In this document: positions 34,794 to 64,000 of the stretch, piece after piece
Layout: each line of letters opens with the position of its first letter
How positions within the stretch are numbered: the first letter of the stretch is position 1
Origin: Aquitalea magnusonii
GTDB lineage: Bacteria > Pseudomonadota > Gammaproteobacteria > Burkholderiales > Chromobacteriaceae
DNA length: 64,000 nt
Assembly: GCF_003202035.1 (NCBI RefSeq)
Contig: NZ_QJKC01000011.1
Location: 1-64,000, forward strand
Direction of reading: 5' to 3'
Made by a program: the position numbers and the translations under genes
Notes under the pieces: generated by a model
Seen by the model: only the letters and a program-made list of their open reading frames with translations
Database searches by the model: none
Told to the model about the DNA's origin: nothing

Positions 34794-36710
34794 TCAGTCC
34801 GGGCTGTCCATGCCGTTTTCCAGTGCCTCCAGCTGTTCTTGCAGCAGCATCCAGTCTTCTTCTACTTGAGCCAGTTCACTGCTGACCACGCCCAGCCGTT
34901 TGACCGCCTCGGCCAGCCTGCCCTTGTTGGCCTCGCTATAGGCGTCCTCGCCGGACATAAAGGCATCCAGCTGGTTTTTTTCGCTGCTGAGCTGTTCCAG
35001 CTGCTTTTCCAGCTTGGCGAGCTGGCTCAGTAGCGGCTTTTTCAGCTGGGCCAGCTTCTGGCGGGCTTCGGCCTCCTGGCGTTTCTGCTCCTTGCGGTTG
35101 ACGCTTTGGGCGTCACCCGTGGAGGGTTTGCCGCTTTCCGCCAGCTGGGCCAGCCGCCATTGGCGATAGTCTTCCAGATCGCCATCAAAGGGCGTGACGG
35201 TGCCGCCGCTGACCAGCCAGAACAGGTCGGTGGTGGACTCCAGCAGGCTGCGGTCGTGGGATACCACGATCAGCGCGCCGGAGAAGTCCTGCAAGGCCAG
35301 CGTCAGCGCATGGCGCATTTCCAGGTCCAGGTGGTTGGTGGGTTCGTCCAGCAGCAAGAGATTGGGCTTTTGCCAGACGATCATGGCCAGGGCCAGCCGG
35401 GCCTTTTCGCCGCCGGACATCGGGCCGACCAGATCGGTGGCATTGTCGCCACGGAAATTGAAGCCGCCGAGGAAGCTGCGCAACTCCAGCTCGCGGGCGC
35501 CAGGTGCCAGTCGCTGCATATGCTGCAGCGGCGACTCATCCACGCGCAGGGTTTCCAGCTGGTGCTGGGCGAAATAGCCTATCTTCAGCGTTTGTGCCTT
35601 GATCAGTTCGCCTGCCTGTGCCGGCAGATCGCCCGCCAGCAGCTTCACCAGCGTCGATTTGCCGGCACCATTCACCCCCAGCAGGCCGATGCGGCTGCCG
35701 GCTTCCACCGACAGCGACAGGCCGCGCAGAATGGTGGTGCTGCCGTAGCCGATATCCACCTTGTCCAGCCGCAGTAGTGGATTGGGCAGATTGTCCGGGC
35801 TGTCGAAGTGAAAATCGAAGGGCGAGGCGACATGGGCCGGGGCGATGCGCTCCAGCTTTTCCAGCGCCTTCACCCGGCTTTGTGCCTGCTTGGCCTTGGT
35901 CGCCTTGGCCTTGAAGCGGGTGATGAAGGACTCCAGATGGGCAATCTGGCGTTGCTGCTTGTCAAACTCGCCCTGCTGGCGCGCCAGCTTTTCCGCACGC
36001 ATGGTTTCAAACTGGCTGTAATTGCCGGTGTACAGCGTCAGGGTCTGGTTGGCTACTTCGGCGATATGACTGCAAATACTGTCGAGGAAGTCACGGTCGT
36101 GCGAGATGATCAGCAAGGTGCCCGGATAGCTTTGCAGCCAGTCTTCCAGCCACAGCACGGTTTCCAGATCCAGGTGGTTGGTGGGTTCGTCCAGCAGCAG
36201 CAGGTCGGAGCGGCACATCAGCGCCTGCGCCAGGTTCAGCCGCATGCGCCAGCCACCGGAAAAGCTCTTGACCGGCTGCTGGTGTGCTTCGGTGGCAAAG
36301 CCCAGGCCAGTCAGCAGCTTGGCGGCGCGGGCCGGGGCAGAGTAGGCCTCGATGCGGGCCAGTTCGCCGTGCAGATGGCCGATGGCGCTGCCATCGTCAC
36401 GCGCCTCGGCGGCCGCCAGTTCGGCTTCCAGCTGGCGCAGTTCGTGGTCGCCATCCAGCACGTAATCGATGGCAGCGGTATCCAGTGCCGGCGTTTCCTG
36501 TGCCACATGGGCCATCACCCATTGCCTGGGGATGTCGGCGTCACCGCCATCGGCATGCAGCTCGCCCTTGAGCAGGGCAAACAGGCTGGATTTGCCCACG
36601 CCATTGGCACCGACCAGGCCGGTCTTGTAGCCGGGATTCAGGGTAAGGCTGGCGTTGACCAGCAATTCTTTCAGGCCGCGACGCAGGCTGAGGTTTTTCA
36701 GTTGGATCAT
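34794..36710 (-). CDS. yheS: ABC-F family ATPase, YheS-type
   Basis: This 638-residue cytoplasmic protein, almost the same length as E. coli YheS, has two ABC ATPase domains and no membrane segments. Domain 1 has Walker A GANGVGKSS, signature FSGGWRMRLNLAQAL and Walker B LLLLDEPTNHLDL. Domain 2 has GVNGAGKST, MSGGEKARL and the same Walker B. The linker KATKAKQAQSRVKALEKLE is a hallmark of ABC-F, and the C-terminus is a coiled coil. ABC-F proteins act on the ribosome to relieve stalls or resist antibiotics. The ATG at 36710 (MIQLKNLSLRRG) is chosen by family alignment. It lies just downstream of tsaD. Confidence 0.92.
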   Translation of the reverse strand: MIQLKNLSLRRGLKELLVNASLTLNPGYKTGLVGANGVGKSSLFALLKGELHADGGDADIPRQWVMAHVAQETPALDTAAIDYVLDGDHELRQLEAELAAAEARDDGSAIGHLHGELARIEAYSAPARAAKLLTGLGFATEAHQQPVKSFSGGWRMRLNLAQALMCRSDLLLLDEPTNHLDLETVLWLEDWLQSYPGTLLIISHDRDFLDSICSHIAEVANQTLTLYTGNYSQFETMRAEKLARQQGEFDKQQRQIAHLESFITRFKAKATKAKQAQSRVKALEKLERIAPAHVASPFDFHFDSPDNLPNPLLRLDKVDIGYGSTTILRGLSLSVEAGSRIGLLGVNGAGKSTLVKLLAGDLPAQAGELIKAQTLKIGYFAQHQLETLRVDESPLQHMQRLAPGARELELRSFLGGFNFRGDNATDLVGPMSGGEKARLALAMIVWQKPNLLLLDEPTNHLDLEMRHALTLALQDFSGALIVVSHDRSLLESTTDLFWLVSGGTVTPFDGDLEDYRQWRLAQLAESGKPSTGDAQSVNRKEQKRQEAEARQKLAQLKKPLLSQLAKLEKQLEQLSSEKNQLDAFMSGEDAYSEANKGRLAEAVKRLGVVSSELAQVEEDWMLLQEQLEALENGMDSPD

Positions 36711-38989: not shown

Positions 38990-39400
38990 ATGTCGCTCGC
39001 TAATATTTTTGCCATTTCCGGTTCGGCACTGACAGCCCAGTCCATGCGTCTCAACGTGGTGGCCAGCAATATCGCCAACGCGGAAAGCGCCACCAGCTCC
39101 ACCGGTCAGCCTTACAAGGGCCGTCACGTGGTGTTTACCGCGCTGCCGGTCACCGCCGATCAGCCGCAAGTGGCTGGGGTGCGGGTGACTTCCATCGTGG
39201 AAGACCAGACCCCGCCGCGGCTGAAATACGACCCCAGCAACCCTCTGGCGGACGAAAAGGGCTACGTCAACATGCCCAATGTCAATCCGGTCGAGGAAAT
39301 GTCCGACATGATTTCCGCCTCGCGCTCGTATCAGACCAATGTGGAAATGATGAATACCGCCAAAACCTTGCTGCAGAAGACCCTGCAGCTTGGACAGTGA
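38990..39400 (+). CDS. flgC: flagellar basal-body rod protein FlgC
   Basis: FlgC is a proximal rod subunit. The 136-residue protein has the N-terminal rod motif [19 protein letters not shown] and the C-terminal heptad region [16 protein letters not shown] that forms the D0 coiled coil. GGTGGAGG is the ribosome site, placed within the end of flgB. Spacing to flgB is 2 bp and to flgD 15 bp. Confidence 0.96.
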
Positions 39401-39415
39401 TGAAAGGCAGCAGCC

Positions 39416-40120
39416 ATGACCAGCTCGGTTAATTCCTCGACCAATCCGTATGCGATGCTGAACGGCAGCTCCAGTACATCTGGCAGCAGCACCAGCTCGA
39501 CCAATGCCAATACCGATACCAGCGCACAGGGTATCCAGGATCGCTTCCTCAAGCTGCTGGTGACGCAGTTGCAGGCGCAGGACCCGATGAATCCGATGGA
39601 TAACAGCCAGATCACCAGCCAGATGGCGCAGATCAGCCAGGTATCCGGCATGCAGACGCTTAACACCGCCATGCAGAGCCTGGTGCAGTCGCAAGCCGCC
39701 AACCAGTCATTGATGGCCGCCACCATGATTGGCAAGCAGGCACTGGTACCGGGCAATGCGCTGAGCCTGACCAGCGGTTCCAATGTGCAAGGTGCGGTCA
39801 ATCTGAGTGGCGCTGCCACCGACTACACCGTCAGCATTGCCGACGCCAATGGCAATGTGGTGGATACCCTGACGGTGAAAAGCCCCAGCAGCGGTCTGAA
39901 TTCCTTTAACTGGGACGGCAAGGATGCCAACGGCAACCAGCTGCCCAGCGGCAAATACACGTTCAGCGCCAAGGCCACCAGTGCCAGCAGTACTGCGGTA
40001 ACGGCCACGCCGTATGCCAACCAGGCGGTCACTGCCGTCAGCTGGGCCAGCGGTACGCCGCAGCTGATCATGAAAGACGGCAGCAGCGTCGGTCTGGCCA
40101 GCATTGCCCAGTTGTCTTAA
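39416..40120 (+). CDS. flgD: flagellar hook assembly scaffold protein FlgD
   Basis: FlgD caps the growing hook and is discarded later. The 234-residue protein has a Ser/Thr-rich N-terminus, the signature FLKLLVTQLQAQDPMNPMD (about 42-60) and a C-terminal FlgD Ig-like/tudor part with the FNWDGKDANGNQLPSGKYTF motif. It lies between flgC and flgE, as expected. Confidence 0.95.
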   Translation: MTSSVNSSTNPYAMLNGSSSTSGSSTSSTNANTDTSAQGIQDRFLKLLVTQLQAQDPMNPMDNSQITSQMAQISQVSGMQTLNTAMQSLVQSQAANQSLMAATMIGKQALVPGNALSLTSGSNVQGAVNLSGAATDYTVSIADANGNVVDTLTVKSPSSGLNSFNWDGKDANGNQLPSGKYTFSAKATSASSTAVTATPYANQAVTAVSWASGTPQLIMKDGSSVGLASIAQLS

Positions 40121-40161
40121 TCAAAAGTCATTAGCGCAAACAGGTTTCGGGGAGTAGTGTC

Positions 40162-41427
40162 ATGGGTTTTCAACAAGGTTTGAGCGGTCTGAATTCGGCG
40201 TCTGCACAGCTGGATACCATCGGTAACAACGTATCCAACGCCAGCACCGTCGGTTTCAAGAGTTCGCGCACCGAGTTTGGCGATCTGTTCTCCACCAGCT
40301 TTTATGGTGTGGCCAATACCAGCGCCGGTATCGGCTCGCAGGTGAGTGGGGTCACCCAGTCCTTTAGTGCGGGCAACATTACCCCGACCGGTCGCAGCCT
40401 GGACCTTGCCATCAATAACAACGGCTTTTTCATCGTACGGCAGAATCCGACCTCCAGCACCGGCTCGCTGGCCTATACCCGTAATGGCCAGTTCCAGGTG
40501 GACAAGGATGGTTACATCGTCAATGGCAACGACCGCCTGCAAGGCTGGATGGCCAATAATGGCGTGGTGACCCAGGGCCCGGTCACCGACCTGAAACTGC
40601 AAACCAACCTGATTTCGCCGGCAGCGACTACCAAGGTCTCCATGGGGGTCAATCTGGACTCTCGCCTGAGTGCCCCTACGGTGACGCCGCTGAATCCGAC
40701 CAATACCAATAGTTTCAACTGGTCGAATGCCGCACAGGTGTATGACAGCCTGGGTAATCAGCACAACCTGACCCTGTACTACGTCAAGGGCACGCCGACC
40801 GCCACCGGCACGCCGTGGACGGTAACCGCCTATGTCGATGGCAGTCCGGCTAGCGGCACCAATACCTACACGATGAACTACGATACCTCCGGTAATCTGA
40901 TCACTACTACATCTACCACACCTCCCACGCCTATCGCACCGTTCAGTGTCACCTTCTCCCCGACGCCGGTGAATGGTTCTTCGGCACCGGTAACCTTTAC
41001 CGTGGATTACACCGGTTCCACCCAGGTGGCGCAGGCTTCCGGTACCCCGACCGAAACAGTGGATGGCTATGCCCCGGGTACGCTGAGCAGCATGAATATC
41101 GACACCCACGGCAATATCATGGCCAGCTTTTCCAATGGTCAGAACAAAGTCATCGGGCAAGTGGCGCTGGCCACCTTCACCAACTCGCAAGGCCTGCAAA
41201 ATGAAGGCGGCAACCGCTGGCAGCAGACCCTGCAATCCGGCGTGCCAGCCTACAATGCCCCGGGTTCCGGCAATGCCGGTACCGTGCAGTCGCAGGCACT
41301 GGAAGATTCCAACGTCGACCTGACTGCGGAACTGGTCAACATGATTACCGCGCAGCGCTTCTACCAGGCGAATGCCCAAACCATCAAGACCGAAGACACC
41401 TTGATGCAGACCATCATCAATCTGTGA
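40162..41427 (+). CDS. flgE: flagellar hook protein FlgE
   Basis: FlgE forms the hook. The 421-residue protein starts MGFQQGLSGLNSASAQLD, with the rod/hook motif IGNNVSNASTVGFKSSRTEF, a threonine-rich variable surface region (about 180-310), and the conserved C-terminus LVNMITAQRFYQANAQTIKT. GGGGAG is the ribosome site. It is separated from flgD by 41 bp with no promoter seen. Confidence 0.96.
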   Translation: MGFQQGLSGLNSASAQLDTIGNNVSNASTVGFKSSRTEFGDLFSTSFYGVANTSAGIGSQVSGVTQSFSAGNITPTGRSLDLAINNNGFFIVRQNPTSSTGSLAYTRNGQFQVDKDGYIVNGNDRLQGWMANNGVVTQGPVTDLKLQTNLISPAATTKVSMGVNLDSRLSAPTVTPLNPTNTNSFNWSNAAQVYDSLGNQHNLTLYYVKGTPTATGTPWTVTAYVDGSPASGTNTYTMNYDTSGNLITTTSTTPPTPIAPFSVTFSPTPVNGSSAPVTFTVDYTGSTQVAQASGTPTETVDGYAPGTLSSMNIDTHGNIMASFSNGQNKVIGQVALATFTNSQGLQNEGGNRWQQTLQSGVPAYNAPGSGNAGTVQSQALEDSNVDLTAELVNMITAQRFYQANAQTIKTEDTLMQTIINL

Positions 41428-41466
41428 TTGATGTCAGCCAGATCAGCCTAAGGAAGCGGGGAAACA

Positions 41467-42207
41467 ATGGATAAGATGCTGTACCTGGCCATGACCGGTG
41501 CCAAACACATCGATTTGCAGCAAGCCACCACGGCCAATAATCTGTCCAATGCCAATACCAATGCCTTCAAGGCCGATCTGGCCTCCTTCCGTGCGCTGCC
41601 GGTAGTGGGCCCCGGTGCGCCGACCCGTACTTATGTGGTGGACAACACCATTGGCCATGACATGAGCCAGGGCAGCCTGATGCATACCGGCAGCCCCAGT
41701 GACTTTGCCCTGGGTTCGCCCGGTTTCTTCGCCGTGCAGGCCGCGGATGGCAGTGAAGCCTATACCCGCGATGGCGGCTACGTGCTGGACGCCAATGGCA
41801 TGATGCGCACCCGCAGTGGCCTGCCCATCACCGGGGATGGCGGCCCGATTACCGTGCCGACCGGCTATCAGGTGCAGCTGGGTCAGGATGGTTCGGTTAT
41901 CGGCGTGCCGCAAAACGGCAAGGACCGTACCCCGCAACTGCTGGGGCAGATCAAGCTGGTCAATCCCGGTGCCAAGGAAGTGTACAAGGGGCCGGACGGC
42001 CTGTTCCGCATGAATAGTGGCGATACCGCCACGGCCGACACCTCGGTCAAACTGGTGCCGGAAACGCTGGAAGCCAGCAATGTCAACGCGGTGGAAAGCC
42101 TGGTGCAGATGATCTCCCACGGTCGCCAGTACGACATGAATATCAAGCTGATGACCAATGCTGATCAGAACGATCAGAAAGCCACCCAGCTGCTGGCCAT
42201 GGGCTAA
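41467..42207 (+). CDS. flgF: flagellar basal-body rod protein FlgF
   Basis: FlgF is a proximal rod subunit. The 246-residue protein has the N-terminal motif TANNLSNANTNAFKADLASF, the central D1 region with SPGFFAVQAADGSEAYTR, and the C-terminal VESLVQMISHGRQYDMN. It is placed between flgE and flgG as in most proteobacteria. Confidence 0.95.
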   Translation: MDKMLYLAMTGAKHIDLQQATTANNLSNANTNAFKADLASFRALPVVGPGAPTRTYVVDNTIGHDMSQGSLMHTGSPSDFALGSPGFFAVQAADGSEAYTRDGGYVLDANGMMRTRSGLPITGDGGPITVPTGYQVQLGQDGSVIGVPQNGKDRTPQLLGQIKLVNPGAKEVYKGPDGLFRMNSGDTATADTSVKLVPETLEASNVNAVESLVQMISHGRQYDMNIKLMTNADQNDQKATQLLAMG

Positions 42208-42260
42208 GCCCAGCTGCTCCCATACTCATAACAAATCAAGAATTCTGAGGAAACACCGCC

Positions 42261-43043
42261 ATGATGCGTGCGCTTTATGTTGCCAAGACCGGGATGGACT
42301 CCAGCCAGTTCAATCTGGATGTCATTTCCAACAACCTGGCCAACGTCAACACCGTGGGTTTCAAGCGCGGGCGCGCTGTGTTCGAAGATCTTTACTATCA
42401 GACCCTGCGCCAGCCGGGTGCGCAGCTGGCAGATGGCAGCACCACGCCCACCGGTTTGCAGGTTGGTACTGGTGCCACGGCAGTGGCTACCGCCAAGAAC
42501 TTCACCCAGGGCAATATGACGCAGAGCAGCCAGCCACTGGACTGGGCGATTACCGGCGACGGCTTTTTCCGTATCCTGCGCCCGGATGGCACCACGGCTT
42601 ATACCCGTGATGGTGAGTTCAAGCGCAACTCCAGCGGTGACATCGTCACCTCGGATGGCTATCAGCTCAACCCCAATATCAATATCCCCAGCACGGCTTC
42701 GCAAATTACCGTTTCCACCGCCGGTGTGGTGCAGTACTTCCTGCCCAACAATCCGGCACCGCAAACCGCCGGCACCATCCAGCTGACGACCTTCATCAAT
42801 CCGCAAGGTCTGGAAAGTGTCGGCAATAATCTGTACCTGCAAAGTGCCTCCTCCGGCGATCCGCAGGATGGCGATCCGGGTACGGACAGCCGTGGTCTGG
42901 TCATGCAGGGTTTTCTGGAAGGCTCCAACGTCAATGTGACCGAGGAACTGGTCAACATGATTACCGCCCAGCGTTCGTTTGAAATGAACTCCAAGGCGAT
43001 CACCACGGCCGACCAGATGCTGCAGAAGCTGACGCAGATGTAA
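42261..43043 (+). CDS. flgG: flagellar basal-body distal rod protein FlgG
   Basis: FlgG builds the distal rod. The 260-residue length is standard. It starts MMRALYVAKTGMDSSQFNLD, continues ISNNLANVNTVGFKRGRAVF, has YYQTLRQPGAQLADGS (the FlgG-specific segment), and ends ELVNMITAQRSFEMNSKAI. An alternative ATG is the next codon. GAGGAAA is the ribosome site. Confidence 0.97.
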   Translation: MMRALYVAKTGMDSSQFNLDVISNNLANVNTVGFKRGRAVFEDLYYQTLRQPGAQLADGSTTPTGLQVGTGATAVATAKNFTQGNMTQSSQPLDWAITGDGFFRILRPDGTTAYTRDGEFKRNSSGDIVTSDGYQLNPNINIPSTASQITVSTAGVVQYFLPNNPAPQTAGTIQLTTFINPQGLESVGNNLYLQSASSGDPQDGDPGTDSRGLVMQGFLEGSNVNVTEELVNMITAQRSFEMNSKAITTADQMLQKLTQM

Positions 43044-61474: not shown

Positions 61475-61652
61475 GCTGTCTCCTTGGTTGACTGTTGTCA
61501 GACTACATCGCCAGCGCCTGCCAGTGACGGGCAACAGGCTGTCGATAAGTCGGTAAGCGTGCTAGCGTGAGGGCTGTCAGCACAGGGCCCAGTATCGGTT
61601 GCTGTCCTGCGTATGAAAATTACATCAAGTGGGTAACCAGATTGGGGTAGTC

Positions 61653-62429
61653 GTGGCTTTGGAAATGCAGGATATCGCCTGGCATCGCACGGTGGGGCGT
61701 TTGATCGATCAGCTGGACAAGCCGGTGTTCTGGCCAGCCTTGCTGGGCGTGCTGGCCGACTACGTGGCCTTTGACAGCTGGGTGGTGCTGCTGTTTTACC
61801 CGGATCGCCCGCCCACGGTGCTGGCCGAGCAGGCCATGGCCGATGGCGGGGTGGATACGCTGTTTCAGGATTATCTGCAGGGCCTGTACCGGCTGGACCC
61901 GTTTTATGTCGCCAGCCTGGAGTACCGCCATGCCGGGCTGTTGCGGCTGGACGAGGTGGCACCGGACCGCTTTCCGTTTACCGATTACTACCAGCGCTAT
62001 TTCCGCCTGAACATTGTCGAGGATGAGGTGCAGTTCAACCTGCCTGGCGAGGATGGCAGCACCTTGTGTCTGTCACTGGGGGCCGGACAGCGCTTTAGTC
62101 CGGAGCAAATGGCAATCTTGAGCCTGTTGCAGCCCTGGGTACTGGCCCTGATGCGCCAGCGCCTGCATTTCGAGCAATTGGCGGCCAGCAAGCCTGCTGT
62201 AGCCGCCCCGCAGGCAGCCCCGGTCGGGCTGGAGGGGCAGGGCCTGACCCTGCGCGAGAATGAGGTGGCGCAACTGATGCTGGGCGGCCATTCCAGCAAG
62301 GCGATTGCCCAGCGCTTGCAGATATCGGTGGAGACCGTGCGCGTACACAAGAAACACCTGTACAGCAAGCTGGGCATCAATTCGCAATCCGAGCTGTTCT
62401 CGGTATTCCTGCGCGCCAGCCGGGCGTGA
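61653..62429 (+). CDS. LuxR-family transcriptional regulator
   Basis: This regulator of about 258 residues ends in a LuxR-type helix-turn-helix (LTLRENEVAQLMLGGHSSKA followed by IAQRLQISVETVRVHKKHLY). The N-terminal 190 residues are not a recognisable autoinducer-binding or receiver domain; they contain WPALLGVLADYVAFDSWVVL and aromatic-rich stretches, suggesting an effector-binding fold. No luxI is near. Start choice is uncertain: GTG at 61653 has GGGG upstream, while GTG 61629 and ATG 61665 are in frame. Its divergence from the amidase-permease unit suggests it controls them. Confidence 0.8.
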   Translation: MALEMQDIAWHRTVGRLIDQLDKPVFWPALLGVLADYVAFDSWVVLLFYPDRPPTVLAEQAMADGGVDTLFQDYLQGLYRLDPFYVASLEYRHAGLLRLDEVAPDRFPFTDYYQRYFRLNIVEDEVQFNLPGEDGSTLCLSLGAGQRFSPEQMAILSLLQPWVLALMRQRLHFEQLAASKPAVAAPQAAPVGLEGQGLTLRENEVAQLMLGGHSSKAIAQRLQISVETVRVHKKHLYSKLGINSQSELFSVFLRASRA

Positions 62430-62452
62430 AAAAGCCTGCGCGTGGCAGGCTT
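62429..62452 (-). terminator. minus-strand terminator next to the displaced mnmA 3' end
   Basis: On the minus strand AAGCCTGC and GCAGGCTT (62445-62452 / 62432-62439) pair and are followed by TTTTT. It lies 8 bp beyond repeat copy A, in the position expected for the original terminator of mnmA, and converges on the LuxR-type gene. Confidence 0.72.
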
Positions 62453-62459
62453 GGTGTGA

Positions 62460-62504
62460 TGCCGGGCTTGCTTACTGGATGATGCCGCCACCCAGACAGA
62501 TGTC
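62460..62504 (-). repeat. repeat copy A: duplicated 3' end of mnmA
   Basis: These 45 bp match 63155-63199 at 43 positions. Read on the minus strand they encode [10 protein letters not shown] and a stop, the C-terminus of MnmA, plus 12 bp beyond. Both differences are silent third-position changes (ATC/ATT and GGT/GGC). Upstream of it there is no mnmA reading frame, so it is a detached gene end. Confidence 0.9.
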
Positions 62505-62532
62505 GTATTGGCTTATCCAGACCTAGTCTTGA

Positions 62533-63015
62533 TCATTTTGCCGGTATCGATTGCTGCTTCCATTCCCTGACATAGTCGGCAAATTTCAAAGGGAGCCCAC
62601 CGCTATCACCTGTGCCTTCGGCAAATTCCCTGAGTAAGGAACGGGTACAGAAATAGTCATCCTTGAAATGGTAATTTTGTGGAAAATGAATCGGTGCGAT
62701 TTGTTGGCTTGCTGCATATTTGAAAGCGGCAATGGCCTGTTCTGTTTGTTCCGCACCAACTTCAAGGAGCAGATTTTTGCGGATGATCTGCTGCAATTCC
62801 TGTTGATATACACCGTGTTTTGCTTGCCATTGTGCATACGCGGCTTGCAAGGGGGCTACGCTGGCCGGGGCAATGTCTGAGCAGGATTGCAGCGTATTCG
62901 GGAATAAACCCTGTACATCCAGAAAGGCAGTCGCGAAGATTTGCATCTTGCCAGCGTTGCCTGCGAAAACAGAGCTGGTTAGGCCAGCAAGCAACGCCAC
63001 GAGTATTCTGAGCAT
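62533..63015 (-). CDS. exported protein of unknown function within an insert at mnmA
   Basis: This 160-residue protein is not recognised. It has a Sec signal peptide (MLRILVALLAGLTSSVFAG) and a helical mature part with two cysteines, in LQSCSDIAPAS and DDYFCTRSLL, which could form a disulfide in the periplasm. GGAGG lies before the ATG at 63015. The gene is visibly richer in A and T than its neighbours and lies between two copies of the mnmA 3' end, so it was probably acquired by transfer. Immunity or inhibitor-type small periplasmic proteins look like this, but no function is assigned. Confidence 0.7.
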   Translation of the reverse strand: MLRILVALLAGLTSSVFAGNAGKMQIFATAFLDVQGLFPNTLQSCSDIAPASVAPLQAAYAQWQAKHGVYQQELQQIIRKNLLLEVGAEQTEQAIAAFKYAASQQIAPIHFPQNYHFKDDYFCTRSLLREFAEGTGDSGGLPLKFADYVREWKQQSIPAK

Positions 63016-63117
63016 ATCGCCTCCATTGTGATGATTGGACCGCCACCATGAGTGGTGGTGGCCAATTGAATCAGTGATTCTCAACAATGATTGAAGCGAT
63101 GCGCAATGACACAAATA

Positions 63118-63145
63118 GCCATTGCGTATTTTGGCAATGGCTTTT
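63118..63145. terminator. hairpin terminator after mnmA
   Basis: GCCATTGC (63118-63125) and GCAATGGC (63134-63141) form an 8-bp stem. On the plus strand TTTT follows; on the minus strand TATTTGT follows, 22 bp past the mnmA stop. Confidence 0.65.
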
Positions 63146-63154
63146 AGCTGGTGG

Positions 63155-63199
63155 TGCCGGGCTTGCTTACTGGATGATGCCGCCGCCCAGACAAATGTC
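63155..63199 (-). repeat. repeat copy B: 3' end of the intact mnmA
   Basis: This is the copy attached to the mnmA reading frame. It spans the last 10 codons, the TAA at 63167-63169 and 12 bp beyond, and matches 62460-62504 at 43 of 45 positions. The two copies are direct repeats 695 bp apart. Confidence 0.9.
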
Positions 63200-64000
63200 C
63201 CCGTCGTACAGCACGGCAGACTGGCCCGGCGTCACCGCCCACTGTTTTTCGCGGAAGGTGAGGGTGGCCTGGCCATCCACCACCGGCGACAGCGAACAGG
63301 CGGCATCGGCCATGCGGTAGCGGTTTTTGGCGGCGTATTCGCCGGCAGCCGGCGCGCCATTCAGCGTCCACGACAGATCGCTCATCGCCAGCGTGGGCTT
63401 GAGCAGCAGCGGGTGGTCGTGCCCCTGCACCACAATCAGCTTGTTGCCTGGAATATCCTTGCCGGCGACAAACCACGGCTCGCCACTGCCATCCTTGCTG
63501 CCGCCTATGGTCAGGCCCTTGCGCTGGCCCAGCGTGTAATACATCAGGCCCATGTGCTCGCCCACCACCTTGCCATCCGGCAAGATCATCTGGCCGGGCT
63601 GGGTGGGCAGATAGCGTTGCAGGAACTCACGGAAGGGGCGTTCGCCGATAAAGCAGATGCCGGTGGAGTCCTTCTTGGCGGCGGTAGGCAGCCCGGCTTC
63701 CTCGGCCAGCTTGCGTACTTCGGTCTTGCGGATGTCGCCCAGCGGGAACATGGCTTTGGCCAGCTGGTGTTGCTGCAGGCGGTACAGGAAGTAGCTCTGG
63801 TCCTTGGTGTGGTCCACCGCCTTCATCAGGTAGTGCAGGCCGTCCTTTTCCATCTTGCGGGCGTAATGACCGGTGGCGATGCAGTCGGCACCCAGTTCCA
63901 GCGCATAGTCCAGAAAAGCCTTGAACTTGATTTCGGCATTGCACAGCACGTCCGGATTGGGCGTGCGGCCGGCCGAGTATTCCTTGAGGAAGTAGGAGAA
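63167..64000 (-). CDS. mnmA: tRNA-specific 2-thiouridylase MnmA (partial, N-terminus outside the window)
   Basis: MnmA thiolates U34 of the Lys, Glu and Gln tRNAs. The C-terminal 278 residues are here, reading to the window edge in frame. [20 protein letters not shown] contains the first active-site Cys, [13 protein letters not shown] is conserved, and [14 protein letters not shown] contains the second Cys. The C-terminal beta-barrel ends [16 protein letters not shown]. The frame is intact. Its 3' end is the site of the duplication described at 62460 and 63155. Confidence 0.95.

Follow-up and report, generated by a model that had tools for sequence, protein, structure and literature searches.

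The 3' end of mnmA, the gene of the tRNA 2-thiouridine synthase, is an accessory-gene slot, or islet, in one Aquitalea clade, and its content varies between species. In the Aquitalea magnusonii genome analysed here, foreign DNA lies 33 nt before the original end of mnmA: one copy of the gene end (copy B) restores the full reading frame, and the original end (copy A) has been displaced together with its terminator. We give about an even chance to the explanation that we prefer, namely one old insertion in the ancestor of the clade, which was later reshaped by homologous recombination. Throughout, the window is the whole stretch of 64,000 nucleotides that was analysed, and its own genome is G000 in our sample of the genus.

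Structure of the duplicated mnmA end

The direct repeat at the end of mnmA spans 49 nt, with copy A at 62456-62504 and copy B at 63151-63199, both read on the minus strand and identical at 46 of the 49 positions. An earlier note on this DNA had described a repeat of 45 nt (62460-62504 and 63155-63199); its identity, when recomputed, was indeed 43/45, and the match extends to the 49 nt given above. Each copy was said to encode the last 10 residues and the stop codon of MnmA, in agreement with a coding part of 33 nt (62472-62504 in copy A), and the two mismatches that fall inside this part are both synonymous, as had been claimed. Copy B was also correctly assigned to the intact gene: according to the repeat alignment, it comprises the final 33 nt of mnmA and 16 nt past the stop, and it ends an intact reading frame with Pfam MnmA domains (63167..64000, minus strand), which is the 3' part of a gene that continues past the window. 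Copy A was recognized as the displaced original end from the repeat alignment and from the loci of relatives. Across a query of 260 amino acids, MnmA was 97-100% identical in genomes G001 to G007. The mnmA reading frame of a more distant genome, G015 (L075), was about 10 residues longer than the usual C-terminus.

Of the 8 families listed for direct repeats of 36 nt or longer across the 64-kb window, the mnmA repeat was the best matched (94%), with the runner-up at 90%. Two other repeats were observed in the window. Three imperfect 112-nt direct repeats at 39266-43026, which were 63-71% identical to the reference copy and spaced by 2.0 and 1.6 kb, are perhaps paralogous genes in a row. A 48-nt repeat at 35318-36208 (90% identical, copies 843 bp apart) might correspond to two similar halves of a single gene.

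Empty and filled sites in the genus Aquitalea

The genus sample comprised ten genomes, eight of which, this genome included, have the mnmA-luxR neighbourhood; G008, with only an mnmA fragment, and G009, with other neighbours, were left out as uninformative. Strains in which mnmA runs straight into copy A and its terminator, for which the earlier note had proposed to search, were found in five of these eight genomes (G001, G003, G004, G006, and G007). At these empty sites, the mnmA stop is followed by the copy-A-side sequence, the same hairpin as in the window, and then luxR, at a distance of 46-48 bp from that stop in all five genomes. In the window, this luxR-type regulator gene (61629..62429, plus strand; GerE domain) is convergent with mnmA and forms the conserved far flank.

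Inserts were present in three of the eight genomes: this genome, A. palustris MWU14-2217 (G002), and G005. In A. palustris, the same cargo gene as in the window, here called P1, was located between exact 33-bp copies (33/33). Other cargo between the same ends, which had likewise been proposed as a check, was observed in G005, whose insert of 2643 bp holds two tandem genes of the fimbrial type (PF00419; L046:2518-4836) that are 74% identical to each other and have only distant paralogues elsewhere in the genus (up to 47%). All three inserts abut copy A at the identical base.

A tree was built from 3150 shared columns in the 20 kb beyond mnmA. The clade {G000,(G005,(G002,G007))} was recovered with 100% bootstrap support, and the inner placing of G005 with 65%. 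Inserts were confined to this clade, and one of its four genomes, G007 (sister to A. palustris), has an empty site; the sites of the sister group (G001, G003, G004, and G006) were empty in four out of four genomes.

The insert and its cargo gene

The insert between the two coding copies (62505..63166, minus strand), which is absent from the five genomes with empty sites, measures 662 bp and has a GC content of 48.9%, versus 59.4% in the mnmA-side flank. This agrees with the earlier description of about 650 bp of AT-richer DNA with one gene for an exported protein, except that export is apparent only: the N-terminus of the product looks like a signal peptide, as judged by eye from the residues. 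The gene, P1 (62533..63015, minus strand), has 160 codons and, according to family scans and a search for homologues, encodes a 160-aa, apparently exported protein of an orphan family.

P1 matched no Pfam, PHROGs, or PADLOC family, had no significant match in NCBIfam or the PDB, and gave zero matches in the plasmid and phage collections. When the DNA of the locus was compared with the plasmid collection, three records matched, over the mnmA end only. Within the genus, the insert gene was missing from the other eight genomes (one of which is only 61% complete). Homologues were identified in 3 of the 61 family genomes, namely this one, A. palustris, and G084, a member of another genus, which carries a tandem pair; the pair, at 52-57% identity, represents the only clear relatives of P1 found besides that of A. 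palustris. A search of the class returned 2 of the 369 genomes, this genome and one weak partial match (E 4.8e-4), and a search of genome contigs, which reaches close relatives only, returned a single locus, in A. palustris. Two cysteines are invariant across the four P1-type sequences. The G084 pair (L114:6829-7864) is flanked by a metNIQ-like transporter on one side and a fadD-like gene on the other (names from ORF reading), with no mnmA end nearby, in a setting that reads like ordinary chromosome.

Between this genome and A. palustris, P1 had a dN of 0.059 and a dS of 0.36 (dN/dS about 0.16), and the gene looks to be under purifying selection. Its dS is inside the range obtained for host genes of the same two genomes (0.17-0.43; n = 11), as inheritance from before the two species separated would predict; this range excludes three of the ten upstream ORFs, in which dN exceeded dS and which are probably not real genes, as well as the nitrilase gene, which gave no usable value. 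The P1 gene of A. palustris was considered as a broken gene with two internal stops, and this was rejected: its frame merely ends six residues sooner.

Terminators and transcription

The hairpin at 62432-62452, on the far side of copy A, runs into T's (62429..62452, minus strand) and had a computed folding energy of -12.8 kcal/mol (z -3.8). A minus-strand terminator had been placed 8 bp from copy A; the hairpin and its T's are there, and the distance is 7 bases from the 45-nt copy, or 3 from the 49-nt copy. The hairpin was absent from the output of two simple terminator scans. We call it a terminator because of its fold and because the same hairpin is located directly behind mnmA at the empty sites, which also confirms that it marks the site of the original mnmA terminator, as had been supposed. 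In the window, it now lies behind the cargo gene.

Terminator-like sites numbered three in the scanned stretch, versus 0.9 in shuffled sequences. A simple scan placed one terminator-like hairpin behind the present end of mnmA (63117..63142, minus strand); it is possibly a new terminator within the insert, and in this genome it might cut mnmA transcripts short. A search of 62380-63300 for sigma-70-like promoters found none. Since the cargo gene has the direction of mnmA and lies between mnmA and the old terminator, P1 may be transcribed from mnmA, with transcripts stopping at that terminator.

The shared insert end and the divergence of copy A

The end of the insert that adjoins copy A (62505..62558, minus strand) was homologous among the three inserts, despite the different cargo of G005. 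The alignment of this 54-bp end between G005 and A. palustris matched at 37 of 54 positions without gaps, with a score of 117 that none of 500 Markov-resampled sequences attained; between G005 and this genome, the score was likewise reached by 0 out of 500. No such signal was detected in the left 150 bp of the G005 insert, for which 117 and 159 of the 500 resampled sequences scored as high, and the first ~35 bp of the inserts of this genome and A. palustris match poorly. Among the 61 family genomes, the shared end was located (at most three mismatches) only in A. palustris and G005, by a pattern that does not reach the more diverged end of this genome itself. Between G005 and A. palustris, the insert end was 69% identical, versus 80% or more in the flanking windows listed. 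The 21-bp right edge was also considered as a recurring sequence and was rejected as background: with at most three mismatches, it occurred at 7 places in 6 of the 10 genus genomes, three of them being the insert ends and the other four having three mismatches, and a reversed control gave 2 places.

Copy A of G005 differed from that of A. palustris at 10 of 33 positions, 7 of which were codon positions 1 or 2, and from the mnmA end of its own genome at 13 of 33, as would fit an old copy that is out of use. Copy A of this genome differed from that of A. palustris at 2 of 33 bases, both changes being synonymous; the mnmA end of G007 is two bases off both A. palustris copies. The probability of two or fewer changes in 33 positions was 0.12 at a divergence of 14.5% (that of the insert), 0.03 at 20%, and 0.005 at 25%. 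Slow change of copy A was considered as proof of independent insertion and was rejected on the first of these values (P 0.12 at p 0.145). The divergence figures for copy A do not decide between one and several insertions.

Recombination of the flanks

Diagnostic sites were those at which G005 and G007 share a base that is not present in three or more of the four genomes of the sister clade, and offsets were counted from the copy A stop. This genome carried the sister-clade base at 46 of 52 sites between +250 and +850 and at 3 of 6 between 0 and +250; on the other side of the insert, it did so at both sites within the final 100 bp of mnmA, versus 4 of 21 at -500 to -100. In A. palustris, 23 of the 31 sites between +250 and +400 had the sister-clade base, as did 1 of the 21 from there to +850. 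Judging from these patterns of bases, the flanks have apparently moved between the clades via homologous recombination, which would also provide a route for the gain, swap, and loss of the insert. We also considered, as a general rule, that copy A is refreshed by import from the sister clade. This fits the present genome, with sister-clade sites on both sides, but fails for A. palustris, in which such sites cluster at about +250 to +306.

Search for an integrase and an attachment site

No integrase was found among the ORFs of the three inserts, and the cargo genes that were scanned had no integrase match. A larger, integrase-bearing element at mnmA in relatives, for which the earlier note had suggested a search, did not emerge: a degenerate pattern detected a second mnmA end in 2 of the 61 family genomes and 2 of the 399 order genomes, the same two in both cases, this genome and A. 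palustris. The pattern matched at all in 54 of the 61 and 59 of the 399 genomes, respectively, and decayed or divergent ends, such as that of G005, escape it. A narrower pattern for the conserved end of mnmA matched none of the viral contigs. Among the matches listed, PF00589 integrases lay less than 20 kb from mnmA in G010 and G025 (downstream) and in G015 (upstream side), and about 30 kb from it in G063 and G067; a clear second mnmA end was missing from the integrase regions of G010, G025, and G015, where the best candidates had 10-11 mismatches in 30. In the stretch some 12-20 kb downstream of mnmA in G010 (L163:36-7723), ORFs resembling large recombinases and a helicase were observed together with a PF00589 integrase; this run is apparently an unrelated island.

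None of the open-licence papers retrieved on mnmA or trmU as an attachment site was relevant, judging by title. PMC4701971 mentions neither mnmA nor trmU, and the passages of PMC6884506 that mention mnmA name it among other genes.

Origin of the insert

The locus had been read as a mini-island at an mnmA attachment site. Insertion with a replacement end, with copy A as the displaced original, is upheld; a dedicated attachment site is not supported: the inserts have no integrase, a second mnmA end was detected in only two genomes, both Aquitalea, among the 61 of the family and the 399 of the order, and P1 had no match in the plasmid and phage collections. The attachment-site reading is a possible one, and a single ancestral insertion explains the data at least as well as a repeatedly hit site, since the inserts are found in one clade and have one common end.

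Under a single old insertion, DNA would have entered a single time, in the common ancestor of the clade formed by this genome, A. palustris, G005, and G007, when an mnmA end that it carried recombined with the one on the chromosome. Entry may have been by a single crossover or by a homology-assisted illegitimate join; an integrase since lost is also possible. The cargo, P1 or the fimbrial pair, would later have been exchanged by homologous recombination across mnmA and luxR, and flanks would have been imported from the sister clade. The same base next to copy A, the homologous 54-bp end, and the host-like dS of P1 favour one old insertion with such an exchange of cargo and a loss in G007, as do the five empty sites, the restriction of inserts to the well-supported clade, the decay of copy A in G005, the visible recombination of the flanks, and the low dN/dS of P1. 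This loss, which would have occurred through the direct repeats or through import of an empty allele, must be assumed, since G007 is empty and is the sister of A. palustris. This empty site, together with copies that are still pristine in A. palustris and this genome, speaks against a single insertion and is explained directly by independent ones; the near-identical copy A of the two genomes fits recent independent insertions too. The insert end of G005, which has diverged from that of A. palustris more than the listed flanking windows have, and the 65% bootstrap for the inner placing of G005 likewise count against it.

Site-specific integration by three independent insertions is possible, if rather doubtful. 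Small elements whose attP included the mnmA end would have been integrated by a tyrosine recombinase that acted in trans or was lost, the 54-bp end being an element end. The common insertion base, the differing cargo of G005, the replacement-end anatomy, and the exact 33-bp copies of A. palustris are consistent with this explanation, the empty site of G007 needs no loss under it, and a locus near mnmA in Erysipelothrix is described as a hot spot for several elements (PMC12785378). Several negative results oppose it: none of the inserts has an integrase, no second mnmA end was detected outside the genus (61 family and 399 order genomes, of which 54 and 59 matched the pattern), the conserved end matched none of the viral contigs, and P1 had no match in the plasmid and phage collections. 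Moreover, at most three mismatches from the pattern, the supposed element end occurred only in A. palustris and G005 among the family genomes, and the left end of G005 is unlike those of the other two inserts, the first ~35 bp of which match poorly. A further reading takes the mnmA 3' end in Aquitalea as the landing place of single-gene cassettes with no integrase and with one end in common, which are moved in trans and are repeatedly gained and precisely lost. It strikes us as improbable; if true, different species would carry different exported or fimbrial-type cargo. Homologous import from a donor with a natural mnmA-P1 order, through homologous recombination within mnmA plus, 33 nt ahead of the recipient's stop, an illegitimate join made separately in each lineage, would account for the replacement end, the truncated copy A, and the absence of an integrase, and it is in line with the mosaic flanks of this genome and with homology-facilitated illegitimate recombination, a process described in PMC3240628. 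We regard it as unlikely: three separate joins on one base with homologous ends are hardly expected, and the three P1-bearing genomes of the 61 include no donor, two of them being the inserts themselves and the third having its pair far from mnmA. Simple tandem duplication in place, copying the end of mnmA, or an error of assembly, either one without foreign DNA, would suit a repeat that is short and direct. This is highly improbable in view of the same arrangement in A. palustris, the other cargo in G005, the five empty sites, the AT-richer insert, and the absence of P1 from the other eight genus genomes, including the one that is 61% complete.

Significance and comparison with known systems

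The locus, with its empty sites and alternative cargo, shows on a small scale how a gene can be gained behind a conserved one, and adds P1, a protein that is uncharacterised, apparently exported, and known from few genomes. The decaying, displaced mnmA end could serve as a clock, and short repeated gene ends mark islets that have no integrase. In itself, this is a fairly ordinary small site of gene gain and loss, and insertion with a replacement end is a known kind of arrangement.

Genomic islands and ICEs integrate at the 3' end of conserved protein-coding genes such as guaA, prfC, icd, and mnmE. As in these elements, the Aquitalea locus combines a replacement end next to the gene with a displaced original at the other edge, and it has direct repeats, empty sites in relatives, and accessory cargo. 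Unlike them, the Aquitalea insert has no integrase, excision, or transfer genes, measures only 0.66-2.6 kb, and was seen in one clade of one genus.

Erysipelothrix rhusiopathiae, a distant bacterium, belongs to the Firmicutes. A hot spot of integration close to its mnmA is described in PMC12785378; as in Aquitalea, mobile elements lie near the gene and the contents of a single locus differ. The Erysipelothrix elements are prophages and islands, and the likeness is one of nearness to mnmA. This hot spot indicates that mobile DNA occurs by mnmA elsewhere too.

Finally, the Aquitalea locus resembles homology-facilitated illegitimate recombination (PMC3240628) in that DNA would have been gained with no recombinase of its own and with one homologous side. 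It differs from that process in that one join is common to three Aquitalea species, which probably reflects a single old event.
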